From Eubacterium sp. (GTDB lineage Bacteria; Bacillota; Clostridia; Lachnospirales; Lachnospiraceae): DNA of 64,000 bases. Positions within the stretch are counted from its first letter, which is position 1. Every line of letters begins with the position of its first letter. This document shows positions 15,132-64,000 of this stretch, in pieces. The notes beneath the pieces are model-generated. The model ran no database searches. It was not told where the DNA came from and saw only the letters and a program-made list of their open reading frames with translations. Where the stretch lies: assembly GCA_017475235.1 (NCBI GenBank), contig JAFVGA010000006.1:271091-335090 (forward strand). The letters are read 5' to 3'. Made by a program: the position numbers and the translations under genes.

Positions 15132-18100
15132 TTACTTGGTAAATTCACTTGTTTTTCCATATACTTTTGTACCATCTCCTGTCACATAGTATGGAGTTAC
15201 TGTCCAAGAGGATGTAGTATTTGGATCCATATTTCTAATCGTAAAGGTAAAGAAGTATGTTGATTCATCTGCAAAGAAGTTATTTGGTGATATATTATCG
15301 TTTCCAGCTTTTATTGTTTTATATACTTTTGAAACTTCTTTTTCCTGTTTTTTGATTGCTCTCTCACCATACTGACCTTCAAATGCAAATCCTGCAGATT
15401 GATAATCTAATACATCAATCGAACTTACAAATCTGATTGCTCTACCGTCTGTCTTCCATTGACGTTTCGCTGTAAGCATTTTTTCATCGACAAACTTAGG
15501 ATACGCTTCGCCACTGTCTTTGGCGTGGACTTCGTCAAATGACTGATCATCATACCATCCAGCAAATAGTTTTCCATCCTCTTTTGGATAAGTATTTGTC
15601 TGCTTGTATGGTTCCACATCGTAGTCGCCACTACCGTTCTTCTCAACAAATTCAATATACTTAATACTTAGACAAGTATTTTTGTTTAGCATATCAAGTT
15701 TGAATATTACATGCTGGCTGGCTCCTGCATTATAGGTGAACGTTCCTACATTCACTCTATTTGTATCGCTTAAGTCTTCACACTCAACCAAAGGAAGATT
15801 AAATGACTTGTCATTTGCCATCACTATCGCACGATGTGAGTTTGTGTTATTTGTCATCGACGAATAATATGTAACCACTAAGTCGTACTGTTTACCATGC
15901 TCTAGTGTTCTCTCACTCATGTAATCACTTAGTTGTGCAAATGTATCCCAAGTATCCCATCCTGATGTTGAGCGAACCTTAATTAGTGTATCTCCTAGTT
16001 TTCCTGTGTCGTTAACATCTGAGATATCTTTATATGACATTGCACCCCAACGAGTGTCTTCTGCACTGAAGGTTGCCTTCAACATCCAAGGATCAACTTC
16101 TGTTTCCTCGTCGTTTATTACCGGTGTCCACTCATATGGCTGTTCTTCAAACTCAACCTCACTTATTTCGATTTCAGTATTCTTAGGCAACATTCCTAAG
16201 TAGAAATACACATCTGTCGGATCGTGACTAGATGTTGTTGTATATGAAAGTGTTTCATCGTGGAAGAATTCATCTGTATATATAACATTATCTCCCTCAT
16301 TTATTTCTAGCCTATATTCCTCACCTTCCACGTTTGTAATTAGCGTGCCTGCCTTTGTCGAGTTAAGAGTAATCTTAGCTTTATATGGCCTGTATCCGTT
16401 CATTTTTCCAACTGTATAGCCACTTAGCCTAGCTCCTAGACCATATTCTTTATCCTGTTCATCATCATTAGGGCTATCTTTTAAGATTATCTTTGTATCT
16501 TCAAGGTCTGTGCCTTCGTCTTGGTCGTAAGTGATTGCTGCGTAGTCACACCAATCATCTTTGCCGTTGTATAAATCCCAAGTACCAATGTTAGTCCAAA
16601 TATCTGGTTGAATTCTATTCTGTCCAAAGCTTTCGTAGTATCTTACATAATCAACTTGCATTGACTTTGGCAAATCTTCTGGCAACTGATTTCCTGTGAA
16701 ATGACCACCCACAGCTAAGTTTAATAACAAGTAATAATCGTTATTCATAGATGATGGGTATCTAGATGGTGCAACTCTTCTATCGTTTTCAATCGTGTAC
16801 TCATATACCTTTTGTCTGTCGAGATAGAAAGCAACCGTGTCGCCATTTCTGTTAACTCCATATGTATGATACTGGCTAAAATCTATATTGCTCATCTTCG
16901 CATGGGCTGTTGCATCATTTTTACTTGTGAAGTATTCGTCGTTACTGCTCATCGAAGAATTATAAAAGTGAACTGTACTCTGGAAGTAATCATTTGCGTT
17001 AGCCTGCTCCAAGATATCAATCTCACCATTTCTAGGCCAAGTCATTTTCTTCTCGCCAAGCATCCAAAATGCTGGCCATAAACCCTTCGCTGTGGACAAT
17101 TTTATTCTTGCCTCCACATAGCCTAAGCCTGCTGAGAATTTACCTCTTGTACAAATTCTTCCAGATGTGTAATCATAGTCGAAACTGTTATTATTCTCAT
17201 CGACTATAGTTGTGTGCTCATTCTTTGCTTCAATATTTAGAGCACCACCGCTAACGGATACGTTCTCTTCTTTGTAGTTTTGTTTTTCGTTATTACCCCA
17301 GTTGATTGGAGAATTCACTCCAGCTTTATTTCCAGTTTGAATCTGCCACTTACTGTCGTCAAGTTCATCGCCGTTGAATTCATCACTCCATGTAGCTCCA
17401 CTCTCGTCCACATTCATTGTGTCAGGTGAAAGTACTGGAACTTTTGTCTCTTGCTCTTCTTCAGTTGGTTCTACAGCATTCAATAAATCTATGCTTTCAA
17501 TGTTCAATTCAGTACCAACTTCAAGCATATCTAGTTCGAAGGAAATATCCATACTGTATTGGTCATTGTATTTGAAATCGGCAGTTTCGAGTATATTTTC
17601 GCCCTCCTGGAGTGTGAATAATTCGGAGTGGTCACCAATACCGACTTTCAAGTACGAGATATTGTCTTCGCCGGTGTCGTCATTGTGAATGACAGATGTA
17701 GCCTTTGAAGAATTAATAACAATAGTCGCTTTTGTTTTGGTTCCTGGCTCTAGTCTATTTGATGCGTAGTCCTTAAGTCTAGCCCACGATGCCTCAGCAT
17801 CTAGCCAACCAGATCTTGAACGAACTAGGATTGTTGTGTCTGAATAGTTTGCACCTGTTCCAATTGTCTTGTAACTTAATTTTGCCCAGTGTCCATATGT
17901 AGGATGCTCTGCGTCAAATAATGCATAGAATCCCCAAGGGCCAACACTCTCAGAACTTGTATCATTTTCTACAGGAACCCATCCAGTATCTTGAATTGTA
18001 AATTCTGAAATTACTAATTCGCCTTTGTCGCAGCCGGATGATTCGAAATTATTATCCACGCCCATACTGATTCTAAGGCTACATTCATTTTCCTCTATAG

Positions 18101-19157
18101 GACAAAACTGTCCTGTAAAGGTGTACTCATAAGTGTCTTTGTCAAATACAACTAAATCCTTACTTAGGTTATAGTTACCCAAACCACCTTCTGTGTAACA
18201 GTGAATATTGGAAGGTGGTGGCTCTTTGTCAGTTGCTGTAAAGTTGTATGTTACTTCAACTGAGACATTATAGATTTTATCGTAATCAAGATGACATACC
18301 GACTTCAAATCTTTTGTCTTTAAATGGAAACCATCCCAGCCATATGTTTGATAGTTAAACTGGAATCCCTCAATATTTGAAGCGCCAGAGTACGAACCTC
18401 TCATATTACCCCACTCGTTTTGGATTAGTTTGTACTCCCATATGCCGTCTTTGTCGCCGATTTCTTCCACATCTGTTTTGTCCCATCCGTTGTCGTCCTC
18501 GCCTTGATGACTTGACTTATCGTAAATTGTTGCAGGGAATAACTTCTCCATCACTACGCCAGTGTCTTGGAAAGTAGCTTTAGTAATTGTAAGCGATCCT
18601 TTCTGACAACCAGATGACGCGCCTTTGGCAGTCACTCCCATGTCTATCATAAGAATCAAGTCTGATAAACCGTCGCTAGCGAGTTGTCCTGTAAATGTAA
18701 TCTCTCCAGCGGCACTGTTAATCGTGGCTGATTGTTGTGATATCTCGTAAGAACCAAGTCCCCCATAAGACAAAAAATGGATATTCGTGGCATTCGTACC
18801 CGTATGTGTAACTTTAACAGTCACATCATATACGTGGTAAGGTTCTATTCCACAAATATCCTTAATATCTTTTGTTCTTAGATGGAAACCATCCCAGCCA
18901 TATTGTGTTGTTGTAAATGTGAATCCTTCGATTCCAGACGCACCTGAATAATTACCAGCCATATTCTTCCACTGGTTTTGAATTAGTTTGTACTCCCAAA
19001 TGCCCTGAGCGTCTCCACTAGTCTGCACGTCAGTTTGGCACCAAGAAGAACCCACTGTTGCACTAAATGTTCCGTCTGCATTTACCCTCACACAGCCAAT
19101 ATCTACTGATATTATTAACAATGCAACCGAAAGTAAAATCGATAATGCTTTTCTCAT
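15132..19157 (-). CDS. Large multimodular secreted GH16 endo-beta-1,3-glucanase (laminarinase type), 1341 aa
   Basis: A signal peptide (MRKALSILLSVALLIISV...) is followed by two related modules A1 (about 30-200) and A2 (222-395), each with GIWEYKLIQN and YGWDGFHLxTKD; module B1 (405-560); the GH16 catalytic domain (588-843, SDEFNGDELDDSKW to DYVRYYES) with the nucleophile/acid motif E712-I-D714-I-L-E717; modules B2 (855-1002) and B3 (1020-1170), related to B1; an InlB-like repeat (1186-1215, 'GKLFAGWYDD'); and a terminal domain (1234-1341). EIDILE without the extra residue of kappa-carrageenases, together with WPAFWMLG, favours beta-1,3(4)-glucan. A longer frame to 19217 is rejected; AAGGAG fits the ATG at 19157. 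It stands between rpmB and yloU, genes that are often neighbours. Confidence 0.93.
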   Translation of the reverse strand: MRKALSILLSVALLIISVDIGCVRVNADGTFSATVGSSWCQTDVQTSGDAQGIWEYKLIQNQWKNMAGNYSGASGIEGFTFTTTQYGWDGFHLRTKDIKDICGIEPYHVYDVTVKVTHTGTNATNIHFLSYGGLGSYEISQQSATINSAAGEITFTGQLASDGLSDLILMIDMGVTAKGASSGCQKGSLTITKATFQDTGVVMEKLFPATIYDKSSHQGEDDNGWDKTDVEEIGDKDGIWEYKLIQNEWGNMRGSYSGASNIEGFQFNYQTYGWDGFHLKTKDLKSVCHLDYDKIYNVSVEVTYNFTATDKEPPPSNIHCYTEGGLGNYNLSKDLVVFDKDTYEYTFTGQFCPIEENECSLRISMGVDNNFESSGCDKGELVISEFTIQDTGWVPVENDTSSESVGPWGFYALFDAEHPTYGHWAKLSYKTIGTGANYSDTTILVRSRSGWLDAEASWARLKDYASNRLEPGTKTKATIVINSSKATSVIHNDDTGEDNISYLKVGIGDHSELFTLQEGENILETADFKYNDQYSMDISFELDMLEVGTELNIESIDLLNAVEPTEEEQETKVPVLSPDTMNVDESGATWSDEFNGDELDDSKWQIQTGNKAGVNSPINWGNNEKQNYKEENVSVSGGALNIEAKNEHTTIVDENNNSFDYDYTSGRICTRGKFSAGLGYVEARIKLSTAKGLWPAFWMLGEKKMTWPRNGEIDILEQANANDYFQSTVHFYNSSMSSNDEYFTSKNDATAHAKMSNIDFSQYHTYGVNRNGDTVAFYLDRQKVYEYTIENDRRVAPSRYPSSMNNDYYLLLNLAVGGHFTGNQLPEDLPKSMQVDYVRYYESFGQNRIQPDIWTNIGTWDLYNGKDDWCDYAAITYDQDEGTDLEDTKIILKDSPNDDEQDKEYGLGARLSGYTVGKMNGYRPYKAKITLNSTKAGTLITNVEGEEYRLEINEGDNVIYTDEFFHDETLSYTTTSSHDPTDVYFYLGMLPKNTEIEISEVEFEEQPYEWTPVINDEETEVDPWMLKATFSAEDTRWGAMSYKDISDVNDTGKLGDTLIKVRSTSGWDTWDTFAQLSDYMSERTLEHGKQYDLVVTYYSSMTNNTNSHRAIVMANDKSFNLPLVECEDLSDTNRVNVGTFTYNAGASQHVIFKLDMLNKNTCLSIKYIEFVEKNGSGDYDVEPYKQTNTYPKEDGKLFAGWYDDQSFDEVHAKDSGEAYPKFVDEKMLTAKRQWKTDGRAIRFVSSIDVLDYQSAGFAFEGQYGERAIKKQEKEVSKVYKTIKAGNDNISPNNFFADESTYFFTFTIRNMDPNTTSSWTVTPYYVTGDGTKVYGKTSEFTK

Positions 19158-19249
19158 AATCGGTCTCCTTTCGCCTTGTATGTTTGGCTGTTGCCACACA
19201 AAATATGTCAAAAACAAAGGTTAACTATATTCAATTTTCCCACAGTTAT

Positions 19250-38634: not shown

Positions 38635-38669
38635 AAAAAAGCACTCCTAATAAAAGAAGTGCTTTTTTA
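38635..38669 (-). terminator. Terminator of ssrA
   Basis: AAAAAAGCACT (38635-38645) pairs with AGTGCTTTTTT (38659-38669), directly after the tmRNA 3' end. Confidence 0.9.
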
Positions 38670-38670
38670 G

Positions 38671-39012
38671 TGGACTAGGTGGGAGTCGAACCCACGTCCA
38701 AAAATCCTTCCGCCGTGCTTCTACGAGTGTAGTCTATCGTTAAAATTCCCCATCTCAAACGGAGATAGACACCCAAGTGAAATGAGTAGCTTCTAAATAC
38801 GCCCAAATACTTTGAAGCGAAAGTATTTGTCGTTTCCTACAGAACATAAGATCTGAATAAAATGTGTAGGTGCATTAAACTCAGAACGCTACGTTAAATT
38901 ACGCAGCAAATGCTAATTTTTTATCAGCGTTTAATTTAAAATTGGTATTTAACGCATCCCATACGACTCGCTTCCCCAGTTTCCGAATCCCTGTCGAAAC
39001 CAGTACTAGCCC
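38671..39012 (-). ncRNA. ssrA: tmRNA (ssrA), tag peptide ADKKLAFAA
   Basis: The 5' end GGGCTAG (39012-39006) pairs with CTAGTCC and discriminator A at 38671 to make the tRNA-like acceptor stem. 'TGGTTTCGACAGGG' near the 5' end and GGTTCGACTCCCACC near the 3' end are tmRNA hallmarks. The resume codon is read as GCT (38926-38928) after TTAAAC; the tag is A-D-K-K-L-A-F-A-A with stop TAA at 38899-38901. The L-A-F-A-A end is a proper degradation signal. CCA is not encoded. It rescues stalled ribosomes. Confidence 0.95.
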
Positions 39013-54972: not shown

Positions 54973-54984
54973 TTTTTCAAAAAT

Positions 54985-55150
54985 TAATAAGTAGCTCTCC
55001 ATCTTTTGATGACAGTCACAAGACTCTTAATCCTATGCCCAGGAAAACCTTTCCTAGCAGTTATCCTTCGGCGCTGTCTCCTTTCAGTTATACTCAACTG
55101 CTTAGGTGCATCCTATAACTTACTCATATCTAGCGCAGCCTCTACTATGT
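54985..55150 (-). promoter_or_regulatory. Lysine riboswitch (L-box) aptamer
   Basis: Conserved blocks occur in order: AGTAGAGGCTGCGC at the 5' end, GGATGCACC, GAAAGGAGACAGCGCCGAAGG, CTGGGCATAGG and GTCTTGTGACTGTCATC, then GAGCTACT which closes P1. These match the lysine aptamer. Position directly before a terminator and dapA supports OFF control by lysine. Confidence 0.93.
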
Positions 55151-55163
55151 TTAATTCTCTATA

Positions 55164-55192: not shown

Positions 55193-55220
55193 CCAAGCAG
55201 ACATCACATTCGAGCAATAA

Positions 55221-55248
55221 AAAAGGAGCCTATCGCCAGGCTCCTTTT
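55221..55248 (-). terminator. Terminator of the GH128 gene pair
   Basis: AAAAGGAGCCT (55221-55231) pairs with AGGCTCCTTTT (55238-55248), just after the stop at 55253. Confidence 0.93.
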
Positions 55249-55252
55249 TATA

Positions 55253-56794
55253 TTATTTCTTTACCTTTACTTTCTTTTTCTTACTCCACTTACCATAAAG
55301 TTTAGATCCATTTACTAACTTGTATGCTCTTACCTTTATGTAGTATTTAGTATTCTTATCTAGCTTCTTTAGAGTAACCTTTGTCTTCTTAGTATTCTTC
55401 TGCCAGTAACCGTCGAAATTCTTTTCATCTGAGTATCTAATCTGATATCCTTTTGCACCAGATACTTTTTTAAGCTTAATATAAATCTTTCTTTTCTTCT
55501 TATATTTTGCTTTCTTAATCTTAACCTTACCTGGCTTTTTAGCCTTTGTCGTAGGCTTAGCTGTTGGTGAAGGTGTTGGCTTAGCTGTTGGTGCAGGTGT
55601 AGGTTTAACTGTTGTTGTCTCTTCTGTGAATGGCTCTTCTGTTGGATCTTCTGAATCTCTAGGATTTACCTCATCACCACTCTTATAATATTTCTCTGGA
55701 TTTCCATATTTAGCATATGCCTTTCCTGACTCAGATAGTTCACCTGTATTATAATTATATAATCCTCCGCCAAATGTAGCTGAGTTAAATGAGAAGAATG
55801 AATGTCTCTCTACGTATTCTCTTTCATCTATACCAGGTAGTAAATACTTTATAAATGATGATGTTCCGGCCTGAGTAATTCCATTTCCTGCAGTTGAATA
55901 CTCAGTAAGCCAGATTGGTTTATGATATCTATTCCATGTATAATCAATTATATCCGATAAGAACCAGTCTGCCATCCCCTTTCCGCCATTCCAGTCTCCT
56001 GGATAACAGTGTAAACATATAACATCCACATTATTGTTTACTCCATCCATAAATGCTGGAAAAGTACTATCAGAAAGTTTTGGCCAAAGTGCATATGCCG
56101 GTGATGCAACTTTAATTCTATCACTGAAAGCCATAAAATGAGGCCAAAGAGCAATAACAGTCTCATTAGGTATTCCACTTCCTCCACTATGGCTTATATC
56201 AGGCTCATTAAATCCTAACATATATTTATAATTATTAGCGATAGCAGAATTCATTTTATTTCTAATAATTCCTACATTTCTATCCTCTTGTGTTCCCCAT
56301 ACCATTGGGACATACTCTATGTCTTTGTACATATCAGTATACATTGCTCCTCTGCCCCAGTTATAGTACCAGCCTATTCTCATTTCTTTAGTATTAATGT
56401 TATAGCATCCCATATTTGGTTCTGTTGCCAATCCCTTTTTAGTTACAGCAAAATTAATAGTTTTAGTGTAATGATCAGTTCCATCCGTGAAATTAGCTCT
56501 AACCCATACTCTATGGAAATTCACCTTTGTAGTATAGAACTCATACTTCGTGTCAGTAGTCGTTCCAACTTGACTGCCGTCGACGAAGACATCATAGTCT
56601 TTAACCGTATTGATTACCGATGCATCTTCCCACGTAATGTCCATATAGCCTGCCGCTTTAAGCTGACCATTAGTTGGCGCTGTAACAGCAAAGTCAGCAT
56701 CTGCATTAGTATTTTTTGGCGCTGCAAAAGCTAGTCCAGCAATCACTAATGCAAACGATAAAACAACTATAGTAATTCTTTTTGCAATTTTCAT
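55253..56794 (-). CDS. Secreted GH128-like beta-1,3-glucanase with Pro/Thr linker and Lys-rich Fn3-like module (513 aa)
   Basis: A signal peptide (about 1-31), a short Fn3/Ig-like domain (about 35-118), and a GH128 (Asl1-like) catalytic domain (about 125-370): NIN...RIGWYYNWG, VPMVWG, LGFNEPDIS with Glu197 and WLTEYST with Glu298, the expected acid/base and nucleophile. A linker of three PTPAPT-like units (about 393-415) leads to a Lys-rich Fn3-like module ending KKKVKVKK. Known GH128 enzymes cleave beta-1,3-glucan. It lies 58 bases after the second GH128 gene, likely in one transcript. Confidence 0.88.
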   Translation of the reverse strand: MKIAKRITIVVLSFALVIAGLAFAAPKNTNADADFAVTAPTNGQLKAAGYMDITWEDASVINTVKDYDVFVDGSQVGTTTDTKYEFYTTKVNFHRVWVRANFTDGTDHYTKTINFAVTKKGLATEPNMGCYNINTKEMRIGWYYNWGRGAMYTDMYKDIEYVPMVWGTQEDRNVGIIRNKMNSAIANNYKYMLGFNEPDISHSGGSGIPNETVIALWPHFMAFSDRIKVASPAYALWPKLSDSTFPAFMDGVNNNVDVICLHCYPGDWNGGKGMADWFLSDIIDYTWNRYHKPIWLTEYSTAGNGITQAGTSSFIKYLLPGIDEREYVERHSFFSFNSATFGGGLYNYNTGELSESGKAYAKYGNPEKYYKSGDEVNPRDSEDPTEEPFTEETTTVKPTPAPTAKPTPSPTAKPTTKAKKPGKVKIKKAKYKKKRKIYIKLKKVSGAKGYQIRYSDEKNFDGYWQKNTKKTKVTLKKLDKNTKYYIKVRAYKLVNGSKLYGKWSKKKKVKVKK

Positions 56795-56852
56795 TTTTTC
56801 GCCCTTTAATCCTTTATCAAATATTATTCCTCACAACAATAATCTAGAACGA

Positions 56853-58373
56853 TTATTTGGTCTTAACTTTTTGTACTCTACTCCATCCGCAATAATAATT
56901 CTTGCCTAAAAATGGTTTAATAGCTCTCACGCGAACATAGTATTTTTTCTTTTTCTTGAGTTTCTTGACTGTGCCAGTTATCTCATCAGTCTTTTTGGCA
57001 CCGATTGTCTTGATCTTAGTCTTATATTTTTTCTTTTTGCCAAACTTCTTATTTAGCGAATACTGAATCTGATACTTAACAGCATCATCCATCGACATAA
57101 TAGAATACTTAAATGCTTTCTTCTTTCTTTTCAATCCTATTAAGCCTGTCTTCTGTGAAGCAATACATGTAGCTACAGACGTGTTCTGCGAAGTACTAGA
57201 TGCAACACCGTAAGTCTTTGCTGGATATCCTGCTGGATTTCCGATCTGAGCATAAATCTTACCTAATGTTGTTAAAGCACCTGTTGAATAATCAAACAAA
57301 CTTGATGAACTAGCATCTTTCTTGCTAAGGTCTGGCGAGAACCATGAGTATCTCTCTACATAACTTCTCTCGTTTAAACCTTTAAGGACTATCTTCATAA
57401 ACTCTTGAGTTTTAGCACAGCCTGCCTTATCATTCTTGTCAAACTTCCAAATAGCAAACTCTGTAATCCAAATAGGTTTTCTATATTTGTTATAACACTC
57501 ATCAATCTTCTCTAAATATTCAAGTGCTGTTTCTTTACCGTTATAGTACTTGTTGTAGTTATGTACTGCTATGAAATTAGTTGCAGACTTACCATTGCTT
57601 GGTAGAATGTTCCAATATGTTTTCCACCAGTTTGACCATTGTGGAAATGCTGAAACTGCTGGTGAACCAAGTAATATGTTTCCTTTGTTAGGAACAAAGT
57701 CTTTCATCCATCTTCTCATAGCTACGTCTGTCTTGAAATTAGATTCCCAAACCAAATCTGGCTCGTTAAAACCTAGTACATATTTGTAGCCTTGAGTTTT
57801 AAATCTAGCAAATAAGTCTTCGTATGAAATTGCATCTGGATCTCCCCAAATTTGTGGTACATAATCTAAATCAAAAAATTTAGTATTTGAAAAACCACTT
57901 TCTTTAAATGACTTTGTGCCCCAGTTGTAATACCAACCAATATTCATAGATGCTGGATCAACTGCTACACCCATGTCTTTATCATTCACGCAGATACCTT
58001 TTTTAGTTACATAGAACTTAACTGTAGGTGTCTGAGTTTTTGTTCCATTATTCTGCTCTGCAATAATATATGTTGTATGAGCACTCACTTTAACTGTGTA
58101 GAAATCAACAGCCATTGTTTCTGCCTCAGTAGCAGTAACTGTTTTAATAAGCTTTGAGTCTACATATACGCTATACTGCTTAGCATCTTCCAAATCATTG
58201 TTCCATTTAACATCAATATGGCCTGCACCAATTAAGCTATCAGCTTTTGGAGCAACTATAGCACTACTTTTCCAGGTGTCAGGATCTTGCTTCACATCTG
58301 CTTTTACAGGTACAACCATCAATCCCGATACAACTAATGCAATTGATAAAACTATTGTAATAATTCTTTTCAT
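56853..58373 (-). CDS. Secreted GH128-like beta-1,3-glucanase (506 aa)
   Basis: Same plan as its neighbour: signal peptide (about 1-26), Fn3/Ig-like domain (about 33-126), GH128 domain (about 130-390) with NIGWYYNWG, YVPQIWG, GFNEPDLVW (Glu204) and WITEFAIW (Glu305). The spacing of the two Glu (101) equals that of the downstream paralog. A Ser/Thr-rich stretch replaces the Pro/Thr linker before the Lys-rich Fn3-like end (GWSRVQKVKTK). No clear promoter of its own; a terminator for the next gene lies right upstream of it. Confidence 0.88.
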   Translation of the reverse strand: MKRIITIVLSIALVVSGLMVVPVKADVKQDPDTWKSSAIVAPKADSLIGAGHIDVKWNNDLEDAKQYSVYVDSKLIKTVTATEAETMAVDFYTVKVSAHTTYIIAEQNNGTKTQTPTVKFYVTKKGICVNDKDMGVAVDPASMNIGWYYNWGTKSFKESGFSNTKFFDLDYVPQIWGDPDAISYEDLFARFKTQGYKYVLGFNEPDLVWESNFKTDVAMRRWMKDFVPNKGNILLGSPAVSAFPQWSNWWKTYWNILPSNGKSATNFIAVHNYNKYYNGKETALEYLEKIDECYNKYRKPIWITEFAIWKFDKNDKAGCAKTQEFMKIVLKGLNERSYVERYSWFSPDLSKKDASSSSLFDYSTGALTTLGKIYAQIGNPAGYPAKTYGVASSTSQNTSVATCIASQKTGLIGLKRKKKAFKYSIMSMDDAVKYQIQYSLNKKFGKKKKYKTKIKTIGAKKTDEITGTVKKLKKKKKYYVRVRAIKPFLGKNYYCGWSRVQKVKTK

Positions 58374-58403
58374 TTCTTAAAAATCCTTTGTTTTTTTATT
58401 TAA

Positions 58404-58442
58404 AAAAAGCGTGGGAAAACAACTATGTTTCCCCACACTTTT
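58404..58442 (-). terminator. Terminator downstream of the first binding-module gene
   Basis: AGTGTGGGGAAACA and its partner (arms about 58404-58420 and 58425-58442, slightly imperfect) form a strong hairpin with a T-run on the minus strand. Confidence 0.85.
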
Positions 58443-58449
58443 ATTAAAT

Positions 58450-59868
58450 TTATCTAACGTATGCAGCTTTTTTCGAGCTCCATGCACCGTAAACTTTATT
58501 ACCTTTCGAATCAAGATTATAAGCTCTTGCTTTCACATATACTACCGCACCTGACTTAAGTGATTTGATAGTGTATGTAGCGGTATTCGATGAATACTTT
58601 GTCTTTGTTTTGAATTTTGATTTCTTTTTAAACTTGCTACTGTAAGAATACATCACTTGATATCCTTTTACATTTTTACATGTTCCAAATGTAACTGTTT
58701 CTCTTTTCTTCTTTTTACTCTTAACAGTAAATGATGCTTTTCCAGCAGCTGGTGTCTTTGACCAAATTGCTCTCAATTTCATATCTTTTGTTAAGACGGT
58801 TGAGAAATTAAATTTCTTTCCAGTAGCCATATCTGTATATCCAGCTAACGAATAACCTGATTTTGATAGTTTAACTGTGTTAGCTGATTCTTCATCATTA
58901 ACGAATCTTACAGCTTTTTGTGCATTACCATCGAAATATCTTACTGAATACTGTTTTCCAGCAAGTATCTTCATATTTTTAATATGAATGTTACCTCTCA
59001 TTGATCCTTCATCAGGATATGAAATCAAGTTTGCACCAAGCGCGAACTTAATACCCATTTGAGTGAAACTTCCTTTATGTTTTCCACCACCCCAGTCATC
59101 TGGTGATTCAGGGATTTTGAACTTAGCAACTATGTGAGAGTATTTTGGTTCTCCGCTTTCTTGGTCCTTCTCTGGTATCTTAACGGCAATAAAACCGTCT
59201 TTCGAAATTTCCTCATCATCCTGCTTAACATTTTCAAATGCAGCTGATGGCTCGCCGTTTGAATTATAGTCATATGCTTTAAGTAAGATGTGCTTTTCAG
59301 CTGGCTCATAAGTAGTCTTTCCTGTAATACCATCATATTGAGCTTCATAAAGCTCACCTAGCATATCGAATTCCATAGTATAGTAACGACCAAACTCAAC
59401 TGGAATATTAGTCATAGTTAACGTCATACCCCATGGGTTATCCGCAACAAGAAATGATGGACCGTCTTTTGTCATCTGTCCATATTCACCATCCCATCCT
59501 GTGGCTTTACAGTAGAAAGTAACTTCACTAGAATTATTATTTAATCCTTCCGCTCCGTTAATCCAACCTTCTGTGGCATAGTCGACACCTTTTACAAAGG
59601 TAACTTTCTCACCATTCTCATTCAAGAAATAAGTACCATCAGAATTTGTTCTGTATACTTTCTTTAGCGCATCTTCCCATTCTCCACCATCTTCTCTAGT
59701 ACAGATTGAAAAGCTCGACCACTTAGCATTAGATGGTATAACATTAGATCCGTTTGCTGCGTGTGACGCACCAAAAACGGTACCTGAAATACCAAATACC
59801 ATAGATAGAGAAAGTACACTTACTACTAGTCTCCTTAATGCTTTTTTGTTCAAAATACTCTTCTTCAC
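58450..59868 (-). CDS. Secreted non-catalytic protein with putative glucan-binding module (472 aa)
   Basis: Start GTG 59868, with AAGGAG seven bases upstream. Signal peptide (about 1-33, with VFGASHA), then a beta-sandwich-like module (about 36-310) with ATGWDGEYG, 'LVADNPWGMTLTMTNIPVEFGRYYTMEFD' in pieces, and 'GSFTQMGIKFALGANL'. An InlB-like repeat follows (about 330-372, 'GYTDMATGKKFNFS...LRAIW'), then a Lys-rich Fn3-like end. No catalytic motif of a known glycosidase is seen. It is a close paralog of the next gene (60046-61554). Confidence 0.8.
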   Translation of the reverse strand: MKKSILNKKALRRLVVSVLSLSMVFGISGTVFGASHAANGSNVIPSNAKWSSFSICTREDGGEWEDALKKVYRTNSDGTYFLNENGEKVTFVKGVDYATEGWINGAEGLNNNSSEVTFYCKATGWDGEYGQMTKDGPSFLVADNPWGMTLTMTNIPVEFGRYYTMEFDMLGELYEAQYDGITGKTTYEPAEKHILLKAYDYNSNGEPSAAFENVKQDDEEISKDGFIAVKIPEKDQESGEPKYSHIVAKFKIPESPDDWGGGKHKGSFTQMGIKFALGANLISYPDEGSMRGNIHIKNMKILAGKQYSVRYFDGNAQKAVRFVNDEESANTVKLSKSGYSLAGYTDMATGKKFNFSTVLTKDMKLRAIWSKTPAAGKASFTVKSKKKKRETVTFGTCKNVKGYQVMYSYSSKFKKKSKFKTKTKYSSNTATYTIKSLKSGAVVYVKARAYNLDSKGNKVYGAWSSKKAAYVR

Positions 59869-59888
59869 AACAATACTCCTTTTTAAGT

Positions 59889-59943
59889 TTAGGTGAACAA
59901 AACACCTAAATCTCTCAAGTCATACTTCCTTACAATTATAACA
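59889..59943 (-). promoter_or_regulatory. Extended -10 promoter and leader hairpin of the 58450 gene
   Basis: TGTTATAAT (-10 at 59935-59940, extended to 59943) has no good -35. In the leader, TTAGGTG/CACCTAA (59889-59909) can form a 7-bp hairpin before the ribosome site. Confidence 0.55.
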
Positions 59944-59996
59944 AAATGTAGGGATATTTACTATATTTTTCTAAATATATAGTACCAAAAAAAATA

Positions 59997-60029
59997 CACA
60001 GAAAGGTGATGATTAGTCACCTTTCTGTG
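59997..60029 (-). terminator. Terminator of the 60046 gene
   Basis: CACAGAAAGGTGA (59997-60009) pairs with TCACCTTTCTGTG (60017-60029), 13 bp, then a run of T's on the minus strand. Confidence 0.93.
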
Positions 60030-60045
60030 CAATTATAATGAAAAC

Positions 60046-61554
60046 TTATTTAACGTAAACGCTCTTTCTCTTACTCCATTTTCCGTAAATCTTGTTTCCA
60101 CAAGAATCCTTATTGAAAGCTCTTGCTTTAACATAAGCTACCTTAGATGACTTAAGTCCTTTGATTGTATACTTACTTGTGCTGTTAGTAGTCTTTGTCT
60201 TAGTCTTATATTTAGCTTTCTTCTTGAATTTCTTGCTGTGTGAATATTTAATCTCGTAACCTCTAGCATTTTTATTCTTCTTAAATGTTACAGTTACTTT
60301 CTTTTTCTTCTTACTCTTTAATTTGAAAGATGCCTTACTTGGCTTAGGAGTCTTAGTCCATGTAACCCTTAAGTTAGTATCTTTTTCAATAAGAGTTCCG
60401 AAACTAAACTTTTTACCTGTTGCCATATCAACATAGCCAGTCTGTGTATAACCCTTCTTCTTTAGGGCAATATTCTTAGCCTGTTCATATTCGTTTACAT
60501 ATCTTAAAGCTTTAACAGCTGATCCATCATAGTACTTAACTGCGTACTGTGTACCAGCGATAATTTTCATATTTCTTACTTTAATAGTTCCTTTATAGTT
60601 AACTTCTTCTGGTCTAGTTTTAAGGAATGCGCCACATGCAAACATAATTCCCATATGAGTAAATGAGCCTTTATCATGTCCACCACTCCATTCATCCTTT
60701 GTTTCAGGAATCTTGAATGTTGCTGATACATGTGTTACCACATCTGGATCTCCAGATGGAGTCTTAGGAATAACAAACTTACCATCTTTTGCTTCGCTCT
60801 TTCCATTAATCTTAACCTCTTCAAAAGCAGCTGCTGGATCACCATTTGACTGATAATCATATGCCTTCAACCAAACTTGCTTATCCATTCTCTCATGAGT
60901 ATCTGGATCTTCCAATTCGCTTGAAATATCAAATTCCATTGTATAATAACGATTATACTCAACTGGAATCTTTGTCATATTGAATTTTAATCCCCAAGGA
61001 TTATCTGCCACTAGTGTTTTCTTACCACCATGAGTTTGAGCAGCATATTCGCCGTCCCAACCAGTACTAGCACACCAAAGATCTGCATTGTGAGCAGTAT
61101 TTTGAAGTGGGTTAACCCATCCGTAAGTTCCACTCTGCCAAGCCATGATACCATTATCTTTATCCCAGCCTGTCTTTAGGTCCATTGCGTCATATTGAGC
61201 CTGTGTGATTTGACCTGCTGCCAAAGCAGCCGCTGCTTTTTCTATAGCATCAGCACGAGCTGCTTCAATAGTTTTTGGTGTATATTTTTTAATATTTGTA
61301 TAGTATTTTCCAAATTCACCCTTTAGAGCTTCATCCATAGCTTTTACTAAATCATTTTCCCAACCAGAACAATCATTATCATCTCCGCTAACTAAATCCT
61401 GTCTTACACTAAAACTGTCCCAAGTAAAACTATCTGGGAGAACATCTGATCCATTAGGTGCATGAGATGCAGCAGAGATTGGTCCTGAGAAGCTAAACAC
61501 TAATGGTAAAGCAAGTACGCTGACTATCATTCTTTTAATAATATTCTTCTTCAC
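60046..61554 (-). CDS. Secreted non-catalytic protein with putative glucan-binding module (502 aa)
   Basis: Start GTG 61554 with AGGAGG eight bases upstream. Signal peptide (about 1-28, AASHAPNGSDVLP matching the paralog's ASHAANGSNVIP), a GWDG-type module (about 40-335) that differs from the paralog by an inserted Ala-rich helical stretch (about 92-120, 'AAAALAAGQITQAQYDAM'), InlB-like repeat and Lys-rich Fn3-like end (KWSKRKSVYVK). 'STGWDGEYAAQTHGG' and 'VADNPWGLKFNM' align with the paralog. Possibly binds the same glycan. Confidence 0.8.
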   Translation of the reverse strand: MKKNIIKRMIVSVLALPLVFSFSGPISAASHAPNGSDVLPDSFTWDSFSVRQDLVSGDDNDCSGWENDLVKAMDEALKGEFGKYYTNIKKYTPKTIEAARADAIEKAAAALAAGQITQAQYDAMDLKTGWDKDNGIMAWQSGTYGWVNPLQNTAHNADLWCASTGWDGEYAAQTHGGKKTLVADNPWGLKFNMTKIPVEYNRYYTMEFDISSELEDPDTHERMDKQVWLKAYDYQSNGDPAAAFEEVKINGKSEAKDGKFVIPKTPSGDPDVVTHVSATFKIPETKDEWSGGHDKGSFTHMGIMFACGAFLKTRPEEVNYKGTIKVRNMKIIAGTQYAVKYYDGSAVKALRYVNEYEQAKNIALKKKGYTQTGYVDMATGKKFSFGTLIEKDTNLRVTWTKTPKPSKASFKLKSKKKKKVTVTFKKNKNARGYEIKYSHSKKFKKKAKYKTKTKTTNSTSKYTIKGLKSSKVAYVKARAFNKDSCGNKIYGKWSKRKSVYVK

Positions 61555-61590
61555 TTCTTTTTCCTCCTAATAAGTATTATTTATTAAAGA

Positions 61591-61620
61591 GCCCGTTGTA
61601 CAATACAGCGGGCCCTTAGA
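61591..61620 (-). terminator. Terminator of the 61630 gene
   Basis: GCCCGTTGTA (61591-61600) pairs with TACAGCGGGC (61604-61613) with one G-U pair; the T-run on the minus strand is short. Confidence 0.75.
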
Positions 61621-61629
61621 TAAACTTAA

Positions 61630-62802
61630 TTATTTAGTAATTTTTTTCTTAACTGTCTTTGACCAAGCACCCTTCTTGCTTCCATCAATGCCTCTTACTT
61701 TAACTTTAACTTTCTTTCCTTTTTTAAACTTCTTGTTCTTAATCTTTCTAGAAGTCTTTGTAGCATTATATGTCTTGTTGTTTGCTTTGATCTGGTACTT
61801 CTTAGCATTCTTTGCTTTCTTCCAAGTAACCTTGATAGTTTTCTTCTTAACACTCTTAACCTTAACGCCAGTAACCTTAGCTATCTTCTTAGGTGCTGGT
61901 GTTGGAGCCTTAGTTGTCTCTGGAGCCTTTGTAGGCTGTGGAGCTGCTGTAGTAGCTCCTGTAGGAGCCTCTGTTGTAGGTGCTGCTGTAGGTCTAGGTG
62001 TAGTAGTTGGCTTAGGTGGATCAGTTGGGATTGTTGGATCTAAACCTAAATCTACAATTTTGAAATTCGAAATATCTAGTTTTCCGCAAGCAGCCTCACT
62101 TTCAGTAGTTGCACCCTGTTTATAACTGTATAAAAATGCACCATATGCAATAGTAATCTTCATAGTTGAACTACTAGCATACATTACAAGATTTGCTGAA
62201 TAGTTATATGTATCACCTGTTGTAACTTTGAATGTTGTTTCAGCACCTGTATCAAATATGGAATTTGTATACTCATCAACTGCGCCCACCATAAAGTTCT
62301 TTTCAGGAACATTTTTAGTATGTTCACCAGCTGTGACATTTGACCATTTTGCTGTAAATGAAATGGTATAACGATGAGCCTGCTGAGCAGCAACGTTCAT
62401 ATATGCTGTCATTAGCCATGGGTTATCACCCACAAGTGTACTACCTTGATATTCTCCGTCCCAACCTGTGTTTGCAATCTCTGCTGTAAATCCGTTAGCT
62501 GGTTGTGTAGAATCCCATGTAATCTGAGGGCCATCTACATATTGCTGATCTGGTGGAACATCCCAGTATGATGTTCCTTGTGTTTCACCTGCTGTAGTTG
62601 AAACTGACTTATAAAGTCTTACTGGCCAACCATCTGGATCTGTACTTCTACCTGATCTTCCACCCTCGAAGAATGACCATGGCTTTAATGCCACCTCAGA
62701 ATCAGCTTTAGCTGACTGTGTTACGTTTACGCCGATAAATAATGCGGCTACCACTGCAATTGCACTAACTACTGCAATCGCTTTTTTCATAATAGTTTTC
62801 AT
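61630..62802 (-). CDS. Secreted single-module putative glucan-binding protein with Pro/Thr linker (390 aa)
   Basis: Signal peptide (about 1-33), one GWDG-type module (about 38-255; NTGWDGEYQGSTLVGDNPWLM), a Pro/Thr linker (about 263-300: PTTTPRPTAAPTTEAPT-like), and a Lys-rich Fn3-like end of about 75 residues. No glycosidase motif. It is the simplest member of the family and shows the module boundary best. GGAGG precedes the ATG; it has a strong promoter with palindromes (62855-62883). Confidence 0.82.
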   Translation of the reverse strand: MKTIMKKAIAVVSAIAVVAALFIGVNVTQSAKADSEVALKPWSFFEGGRSGRSTDPDGWPVRLYKSVSTTAGETQGTSYWDVPPDQQYVDGPQITWDSTQPANGFTAEIANTGWDGEYQGSTLVGDNPWLMTAYMNVAAQQAHRYTISFTAKWSNVTAGEHTKNVPEKNFMVGAVDEYTNSIFDTGAETTFKVTTGDTYNYSANLVMYASSSTMKITIAYGAFLYSYKQGATTESEAACGKLDISNFKIVDLGLDPTIPTDPPKPTTTPRPTAAPTTEAPTGATTAAPQPTKAPETTKAPTPAPKKIAKVTGVKVKSVKKKTIKVTWKKAKNAKKYQIKANNKTYNATKTSRKIKNKKFKKGKKVKVKVRGIDGSKKGAWSKTVKKKITK

Positions 62803-62828
62803 TGTAAATCCTCCTTTTAATTTTTGTA

Positions 62829-62883
62829 GAAAACCGTTTCAATAATATATAAAAATTATAACATTCAAAAATTGAATAATCAA
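62829..62883 (-). promoter_or_regulatory. Promoter with operator-like palindromes upstream of the 61630 gene
   Basis: TTGATT (62878-62883), 17-base spacer, extended -10 TGT-TATAAT (-10 at 62855-62860). The spacer holds ATTCAA-AAA-TTGAAT (plus-strand 62863-62877), and AATTGATTATTCAATT overlaps the -35. Further down, GAAAACCGTTTC (62829-62840) has the A/T-flanked CG look of a LacI-family site. Binding is unproven. Confidence 0.6.
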
Positions 62884-62922
62884 TTTATTAAGTTATATAT
62901 TATTATCAAGTCCGCTCACGAT

Positions 62923-62969
62923 TTCCTATCATTCTATACTTATTGTATAACACTTTTTTATGATAGGAA
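62923..62969. repeat. Inverted repeat downstream of the last GH128 gene
   Basis: TTCCTATCAT (62923-62932) and ATGATAGGAA (62960-62969) are perfect 10-bp arms 27 bases apart; TATAC/GTATA pairs lie inside. It could end the GH128 transcript, but no U-run follows on the minus strand. Confidence 0.55.
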
Positions 62970-62977
62970 TTTGTGTT

Positions 62978-64000
62978 TTATTTCTTAATCTTTACCTTCT
63001 TAACATCAGACCATGCGCCGTATCCTGCACTGTTCTTAGCTCTTGCGGCAAAGTAATATGTTTTCTTTTTCTTTAATTTCGTGATCTTTAGTGATAATGA
63101 TTTGGTATTCTTTGTTTTTGCTTTTTTAGTAAGCTTTTTATTTAAAGCATATTTAATCTGATAGGAAACTGCACCACTAACTTTATTCCATGAAAGCTTC
63201 ACTGATTTCTTTTTAACATTTTTTGGTTTATTCAATGAAACTTTGCCAGGTTTAGTTGCTTTAGCTTTTGTTGTGGCCTTTGTAGGTGCCGCTGTGATTG
63301 GTTCAGCTGTAGTAGTTTCAATGATTCTATCATCCCAGTTGAATCTCTTGCTTTCTGGAATAACATTTGCATTATATCCTGCTGGGTTACCCATCTGTGA
63401 ATATTGATATCCTAAATCTGTATACTTTCCACTAGCATATTCAAACATTGCTGTGGCACCACATCCATCTAATCCGTCAATTTCGTTATAACTTTCAACG
63501 TTATATGGGAACCAACAATATCTTTCAACATATGGTATAGCATCTAATGCTTCAACAACGTCTTTACAGTATTTTTCAACTGCTTTTCTAGCCGGTTCAT
63601 TGTCATAACTGTGATCTGAAAGCAATCCCTTCTTACCAACAATAGATACTTCTGTTACCCAAACTGGTTTATGGTATGTATTCCACATTGCATTAACAGC
63701 ATTAACCAATCTACTTACATCAGTTATTCCACCATAACAATGTAATGCAACTGCATCGCATTTCTTCAATGTTGTCTGATCTAATTGATCCAAGAAAGTT
63801 GATAACCACCCAGATGGTCCACTAGGTGTAGACAATGCTGGGGATACCAAACGTTTACCTGTGTTTGATAGGTAAGACCAATTTTGAATTCCCTCTTCTG
63901 GCGTCATATTCGCTTGATGATCAATATCTGGCTCATTGTATCCTAAGAAGTAATTACAATGACCATCATATGCTGCCATGTCTGCCAAACTATCTTCGCC
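62978..64000 (-). CDS. Third GH128-like beta-1,3-glucanase, 5' end cut by the window edge
   Basis: The frame is open to base 64000, so a TTG at 63988 is not the start; signal peptide and N-terminal domain lie outside. The visible part has LGYNEPDID and, 94 residues on, WVTEVSIVGKK, the two catalytic Glu of GH128, then 'ERYCWFPYN' and the shared 'YSQMGNPAGYN'. A short linker (TTTAEPITAAPT) and a Lys-rich Fn3-like module ending WSDVKKVKIKK follow. Same family plan as the two GH128 genes at 55.2-58.4 kb. Confidence 0.88.
   Translation of the reverse strand, partial: GEDSLADMAAYDGHCNYFLGYNEPDIDHQANMTPEEGIQNWSYLSNTGKRLVSPALSTPSGPSGWLSTFLDQLDQTTLKKCDAVALHCYGGITDVSRLVNAVNAMWNTYHKPVWVTEVSIVGKKGLLSDHSYDNEPARKAVEKYCKDVVEALDAIPYVERYCWFPYNVESYNEIDGLDGCGATAMFEYASGKYTDLGYQYSQMGNPAGYNANVIPESKRFNWDDRIIETTTAEPITAAPTKATTKAKATKPGKVSLNKPKNVKKKSVKLSWNKVSGAVSYQIKYALNKKLTKKAKTKNTKSLSLKITKLKKKKTYYFAARAKNSAGYGAWSDVKKVKIKK

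Follow-up and report, generated by a model that had tools for sequence, protein, structure and literature searches.

Beta-1,3-glucan is the glucan of yeast walls and of plant callose, and to our knowledge it is poorly known which gut Firmicutes open it when it is insoluble. Non-catalytic proteins that hold a polysaccharide near the enzymes are familiar from Bacteroidota, as Sus-type surface glycan-binding proteins. Here, we analysed a locus of Lachnospira, a gut genus known mainly for eating pectin, in which three enzymes of glycoside hydrolase (GH) family GH128 are encoded together with non-catalytic proteins, three of which have a TGWDGEY motif in common and are called GWDG proteins below. 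The locus lies at one end of a stretch of 64,000 nucleotides from Eubacterium sp. (assembly GCA_017475235.1, contig JAFVGA010000006.1, hereafter C1, forward-strand positions 271,091 to 335,090), which we call the window. Its enzyme families and pathway are of known kinds; what is new is that the non-catalytic partners are separate proteins, that they are nearly confined to one genus and that the locus occurs throughout it. No description of it was found in the titles and opening lines of abstracts covered by a partial literature survey, which is no proof that it is unpublished.

Described GH128 endo-beta-1,3-glucanases include the protein of PDB entry 6uaq and CBM6E (PDB 8J3X), the latter reported to be specific for curdlan (PMC10956234). 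The enzymes of the locus have the same Pfam catalytic domain and motif, and CBM6E, too, has a binding module (CBM6) next to its GH128 domain (PMC10956234). Unlike these two proteins, they are three paralogues in one locus, end in basic Fn3-like tails and have their presumed binding modules on separate proteins. The GWDG proteins can be set beside the CBM4 and CBM_4_9 carbohydrate-binding modules (CBMs) of Lic16A and BpGH16MLG (PMC10318527): some GWDG relatives match CBM_4_9 and fusions to GH16 occur in both, whereas the GWDG proteins of the window match no family, have a TGWDGEY/DNPW signature and mostly stand alone. Finally, in the GH161-GH94 tandem loci of Gram-positive bacteria (PMC6484121), as in a separate locus of the present genome, GH161 and GH94 or their relatives are found with an ATP-binding cassette (ABC) system, and that separate locus also holds GH16. 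The GH128/GWDG set, in contrast, sits apart from these genes, and GH128 has no occurrence in the main text of the paper on the tandem loci (PMC6484121).

We read the set as the secreted, depolymerising side of a Lachnospira beta-1,3-glucan feeding system, retained in the wall and equipped with stand-alone CBM-like binders; judging from sequence comparison, we give this reading a probability of about 0.74. An earlier, sequence-only reading had seen six consecutive secreted proteins on one strand. The six minus-strand open reading frames (ORFs) are there and look secreted, but the full set has seven members, three GH128 enzymes and four non-catalytic proteins, between efp and dapA. The five proteins that are complete in the window look secreted because each begins with a basic, hydrophobic leader, as judged by a hydropathy heuristic and not by a signal-peptide program.

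Enzymes A (513 aa, 55253..56794) and B (506 aa, 56853..58373) were recognised from the ORF list, PF11790, the catalytic motif and a PDB search. They lie on the minus strand, as does enzyme C, of which the window holds the C-terminal 340 aa with an open 5' end (62978..64000; PF11790). All three far exceed the curated PF11790 cut-off of 21 bits, with 128 bits for A (E 5.7e-37), 149.7 for B (E 1.3e-43) and 109.6 for C (E 2.3e-31). Each has the catalytic motif GxNEP..HxY..W[LIV]TE with both glutamates and the HxY pair, in the versions GFNEP/HCY/WLTE (A), GFNEP/HNY/WITE (B) and GYNEP/HCY/WVTE (C); the roles of these residues are taken from the CBM6E paper (PMC10956234). Both the glutamates of the NEP and W[LIV]TE motifs and the membership in GH128 had been proposed from the letters alone, and both are borne out. 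Enzyme A consists of a leader, an Ig-like N-terminal part with a sub-threshold Big_7 match at 37-90, the GH128 domain (130-360), a Pro/Thr linker and a basic Fn3-like tail (isoelectric point, pI, 10.5); in enzyme B the GH128 domain (128-374) is followed by a basic Fn3-like tail. The nearest PDB structure of both complete enzymes is 6uaq (E 1e-22 for A, 6e-21 for B), which we take to be the protein named AmGH128_I. Homology gives good support to the assignment of A, B and C to GH128 and to the prediction that they cut beta-1,3-glucan.

The window ends inside the gene of enzyme C, where contig C1 itself ends (position 335090). We place the missing N-terminus on another contig, C13 (minus strand, L005:1-594), because the two contig ends have 9 nt in common, in frame, and because the two halves match residues 1-194 and 192-523 of one intact orthologue of 530 aa (L028:8131-9723), with no gap from one half to the other. 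On C13 there follows a seventh, non-catalytic protein with an Fn3-like tail, P7 (L005:918-1781), and then efp.

In a tree of 46 GH128 domains, A, B and C of the window each belong to a different group (support 99/98, 100/100 and 100/97, respectively). The tree was built from ORFs of more than 350 aa with [GAS][FYW]NEP from 13 loci, the three window sequences and four giant proteins; the filter dropped at least two GH128 ORFs (L027:15710-16963 and L033:12736-14232), L037 was left out, and a long-branch warning applies to the giants and to group C. Groups B and C each hold several members from both of the subgroups of relatives described below, and group A holds one member of the second subgroup (L031). 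This grouping suggests that the GH128 paralogues predate the split of the sampled species; for groups B and C this appears firm. Giant proteins with GH128, 1358-1636 aa long (L067, L069, L071, L072), were considered as a clue to the substrate and set aside: outside their GH128 stretch, the long N-terminal part included, L067, L069 and L072 have no catalytic family at E up to 0.01, the L069 protein having a weak GH85_C match (E 0.0067). Some ORFs next to the giant genes resemble AraC-type regulators by eye.

The three GWDG proteins lie between enzymes B and C on the minus strand. P3 (472 aa, 58450..59868) has a GWDG module, a Flg_new-like segment and a basic Fn3-like tail; P4 (502 aa, 60046..61554) is its close paralogue (45% identity); and P5 (390 aa, 61630..62802) has a GWDG module, a Pro/Thr linker and the same kind of tail, its GWDG stretch resembling that of P3 with the tail left out (BLAST E 3e-8). 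TGWDGEY and DNPW are common to all three, and none of them has a Pfam or NCBIfam family above cut-off or a catalytic domain that we could find. The sequence-only reading had described them just so, as GWDG-type modules with Fn3-like ends and nothing catalytic; the CBM search that it proposed gave no family above cut-off in P3, P4 or P5. A defence function was also tried and rejected, as none of the three matches PADLOC.

Relatives say more about the module. At E up to 0.1, CBM_4_9 (PF02018) matches 7 of the 13 members of the P5 alignment (A5), P5 itself not among them, with a best E of 8.3e-6; in the P7 alignment (A6) it matches 6 of 13 (best 8.4e-7), and in the P3/P4 alignment (A4, 19 members) 2 (best 0.0019), next to 2 matches to Flg_new and 7 to fn3; P3 itself matches none of these three families. 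P7 stays below the CBM_4_9 cut-off (E 2.2e-4, 22.1 against 25.9 bits), and the GWDG profile does not find it, having four matches in this genome and none on C13. One large relative (L059:3094-6162, the same record as L026) exceeds the CBM_4_9 cut-off (E 1.1e-7) at residues 104-212, inside its GWDG-profile stretch (39-245). Five large GWDG ORFs were scanned, four found by the profile and one by the motif only, and in two of them GWDG is fused to GH16: in L062:5081-7261 (genome G011) the best PDB relative of the GH16 part is the laminarinase LamCAT (E 1e-67), and L061:5886-9395 (G008) combines GH16, CBM_4_9 and two GWDG matches. When A4, A5 and A6 were compared as profiles with PDB, nothing matched the modules convincingly. 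After the first match for P5, discussed below, came 3p6b (E 0.004; E 0.003 with P7) and further weak matches to 3k4z, 4bj0 and 2y64, presumably enzymes bearing CBM4 or similar modules. The hhalign E-values among the three alignments are inflated by the common leader and Fn3-like tail. On this evidence, the best reading of the GWDG module is a divergent CBM4/9-like binding module, a candidate for a new CBM family, and it is plausible that the GWDG proteins bind the polymer. By analogy, they may work like the surface glycan-binding proteins of the Bacteroidota. SusC and SusD themselves have no match among the six window proteins (Pfam at E up to 1, NCBIfam), in agreement with the sequence-only reading; SusE has weak matches to enzyme C (E 0.19) and to one of the 19 members of A4 (E 0.029).

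GWDG modules also occur away from the locus. An orphan fourth GWDG gene of the same genome, with an Fn3-like tail, stands among unrelated genes (L063:8702-9958, G000:C1:194989), and other genomes of the genus again have matches outside the main locus, in ORFs about 390-420 aa long. On a further Lachnospira contig (L026/L059), six large ORFs of 447-1022 aa that look secreted follow one another, the last incomplete. The five that are complete have similar ends. The GWDG motif is present in the first three, one of which has a metallophosphatase domain and another CBM_4_9.

All seven proteins of the set end in the Fn3-like tail, which is strongly basic (pI 10.3-11.2, charge +23 to +35 over 95 residues); among the window set Pfam fn3 exceeds its cut-off only in enzyme C (29.3 against 25 bits). 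No LPxTG motif was found in the seven. By their coordinates, four GH16 ORFs of this genome, two on contig C7 and one each on C19 and C25, have the same tail towards the C-terminus.

The association of the two protein types is found throughout the genus. Among 23 genomes of Lachnospira, the present one included, and 37 outside relatives, PF11790 matches all 23 and 6 of the 37, only one of the latter (G033) strongly, and the GWDG profile (A3) matches all 23 and none of the 37. Combining the two match tables, GWDG and GH128 lie on one contig in 23/23 genomes, and the association is therefore not one of chance. Over 200 genomes of the family (this one and 199 of other genera) GWDG has a single weak outside match (E 1.5e-4), and GH128 has 14, three of them strong and in ORFs of 1358-1698 aa. 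Hence, the arrangement that the sequence-only reading called unusual is the rule within the genus, and the term holds outside it, where the arrangement hardly occurs.

The surroundings are conserved as well. In 9 of the 13 loci compared (L027, L029, L031-L036, L038) efp and dapA stand at opposite ends; of the other four, one (L026) is another locus and three (L028, L030, L037) are truncated by the end of the contig or stretch. Both ends are also present in two further loci (L064, L070). No enzyme C is seen in L027. The second subgroup (L027, L030-L033, L064, L070) has an additional GH128 ORF of 401-432 aa, in which no Fn3-like tail is visible by eye; where P3-P5 would be, this subgroup has two non-catalytic genes. 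Some relatives have extra genes within the locus, such as SSB, dehydrogenase and transposase genes. Eight of the extra ORFs were scanned and correspond to a 2-hydroxyacid dehydrogenase, SSB, Big_2, three transposase-type proteins, DUF2383 and TspO, with no sugar transporter among them. Transposase genes (IS200-like, ISL3, PDDEXK_2) lie inside the block at L027:6723-8635 and L034:6460-7371.

The steps that would follow depolymerisation are encoded elsewhere. Contig C5 carries a separate locus (L092, L087) in which GH161, GH94, ABC import genes and GH16 occur together. Near its beginning lie a CBM_4_9-like protein of 263 aa (L092:3779-4570; sub-threshold, E 7.7e-5) and an unusually long solute-binding-domain protein of 1033 aa (L092:6557-9658; SBP_bac_1 E 2.2e-27), followed by two ABC permeases and two overlapping Yip1/TPR-type ORF readings. 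Then come a DUF5696 protein, a third permease (BPD_transp_1 E 1.5e-12) and an ORF of 357 aa that matches permeases weakly; a pair of GH16 ORFs and a GH161 relative (PDB GH161A, E 1.8e-245); and finally a drug- or peptide-type ABC pair and a relative of GH94 laminaribiose phosphorylase (6ggy, E 0). GH161 has been characterised on beta-1,3-glucooligosaccharides, and GH161-GH94 tandems with ABC transporters have been described in such loci (PMC6484121, Kuhaudomlarp et al.). The genome has 10 GH16 matches, of which the one on C5 that was compared with PDB resembles 4dfs, an entry named GH16 (E 2e-38), and the laminarinase 3azx (E 3e-38). Another lies in the window (15132-19217, minus strand), a 1361-aa protein (PF00722 E 8.5e-14) that is likely a beta-glucanase outside the set. 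GH16 occurs in 23/23 genus genomes and 3/37 others, GH161 in 21/23 (not in G016 and G018) and 3/37, and laminaribiose phosphorylase in 21/23 (not in G001 and G016) and 1/37. GH3, considered as an assimilating enzyme, was dropped: it is present in 19 of the 23 and was not found in this genome. The route to glucose 1-phosphate looks complete in this genome.

These elements suggest the following mechanism. The three GH128 enzymes, of separate lineages, would cut insoluble or semi-soluble beta-1,3-glucan of the callose, curdlan or yeast type within the chain, while the four non-catalytic proteins, with their CBM4/9-like modules, would attach to the polymer and hold it close to them. The basic Fn3-like tail may hold all seven proteins in the cell wall without LPxTG. 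GH16 enzymes would trim the products of GH128, the ABC system encoded elsewhere in the genome would import the oligosaccharides, and in the cytoplasm the GH161 enzyme and the GH94 laminaribiose phosphorylase would phosphorolyse them. In this way the two loci could cooperate. The block probably binds and cuts beta-1,3-glucan, and as natural polymer a curdlan-like glucan, the glucan of fungal or yeast walls and the callose of plant tissue rich in pectin would all fit.

Several observations weigh against this reading. Between efp and dapA no transporter or phosphorylase was found in this genome. The sequence-only reading had spoken of no transporter beside the enzymes. This holds for the block itself; the C5 locus, however, has ABC permeases and a solute-binding protein. 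In G016, a genome of the genus that is 91% complete, the GH128 locus is present and neither phosphorylase was found, and the link between the two is therefore not absolute. The tail is not glucan-specific: it has 39 matches in the genome, 7 in the locus and 32 elsewhere, so that a general wall-retention module fits better than a glucan-specific one. As for the binders, P3, P4 and P5 have no PF02018 match, CBM_4_9 matches among GWDG relatives are mostly weak, and P7 resembles P5 outside the tail only weakly (BLAST E 0.015). The best PDB profile match of P5 over the module is 4oen (E 6e-4), which we take as chance because its fold class is that of an amino-acid transporter binding domain. Two of the large GWDG proteins (L059:3094-6162 and L060:3586-6288) have no catalytic family and the one recognised by motif only (L059:508-2859) has a metallophosphatase domain; the module is therefore not tied to glucanases alone. 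Lastly, cultured L. eligens has been presented as a degrader of pectin; of the sugars tested, glucose supported growth of both its strains and galacturonic acid that of one of them. The main text of that paper has glucan once, in a reference, laminarin not at all, and otherwise no mention of beta-1,3-glucan (PMC12163728).

The last of the points on GWDG raises the question whether these proteins are partners of the enzymes or do something else, for instance as adhesins for plant, fungal or mucus surfaces that merely neighbour GH128. This would leave the enzymatic half of our reading intact. It would agree with the lack of any catalytic domain found, with Flg_new (the Listeria-Bacteroides repeat) in 2 of the 19 members of the P3/P4 alignment, with the orphan gene of this genome and with large GWDG proteins that have no glucanase. 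We nevertheless hold it to be rather unlikely, given that the module shares a contig with GH128 in every genome of the genus and is fused to GH16 in two relatives. The enzymes themselves might act mainly on the mixed-linkage (1,3;1,4) glucan of cereals, with beta-1,3 cutting as a side activity. In Blautia producta, of the same family, a beta-glucan locus with a GH16 carrying four CBM4 is reported to target mixed-linkage glucan (PMC10318527), and the GH16 proteins compared with PDB here also match beta-1,3(4)-glucanases. A main role on cereal glucan is still distinctly improbable, since the GH161 and laminaribiose phosphorylase relatives suit beta-1,3 oligosaccharides, the GH16 fused to GWDG is closest to the laminarinase LamCAT, and the GH16 of this genome that was compared has 4dfs and then the laminarinase 3azx as its top matches.

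One might also propose that the set does not serve feeding and that its proteins act on the envelope or exopolysaccharide of the bacterium itself, in its turnover or organisation. Presence in 23/23 genus genomes beside housekeeping genes, a block without a transporter and basic tails that could adhere to the wall are all compatible with such a role. Yet, a characterised GH128 acts on curdlan (PMC10956234), and the set is accompanied by many GH16 and by relatives of phosphorylases that act on beta-1,3-glucan in the cytoplasm. We therefore consider an envelope role very unlikely, and prefer the reading of the set as the secreted side of beta-1,3-glucan feeding.

At the dapA side the order of elements is enzyme A, a hairpin, a lysine riboswitch and dapA; the gene names efp, dapA and dapB were assigned by eye. 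The hairpin (55220..55249), just after the stop of enzyme A, is near-symmetrical with a 12-bp stem and may be a terminator at the end of the locus; the scan lists it on the plus strand only. The riboswitch aptamer (54984..55152, minus strand; RF00168, 99.9 bits, E 2.3e-25) lies upstream of dapA and points to a boundary of the locus and to separate control of dapA. A second, terminator- or attenuator-like hairpin lies between P4 and P3 (59995..60031, minus strand), with a 15-bp stem followed by TTTTTTTT, and because of it the block may be two transcripts. The region has 8 terminator-like sites against 4.2 (standard deviation 2.1) in shuffled sequences. Promoter-like sites are no commoner than by chance (32 against 35.8 in shuffles), and hence we make no claim of an operon. 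Farther off, the window holds a tmRNA gene (38668-39012, minus strand).

The presence of the locus in all 23 genomes of one gut genus, together with the seemingly complete route to glucose 1-phosphate in this one, makes the question of who opens insoluble beta-1,3-glucan directly testable in cultured Lachnospira, and GWDG is a candidate for a new family of binding modules, found mostly as separate proteins. Going further, one might speculate that GWDG is a new, Lachnospira-specific carbohydrate-binding family forming a wall-held, glycan-presenting layer, and that beta-1,3-glucan, perhaps callose, is an overlooked core nutrient of the genus; we regard this as possible at somewhat less than even odds. 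If true, the GWDG layer would be the functional equivalent, in a Gram-positive bacterium, of surface glycan-binding proteins.

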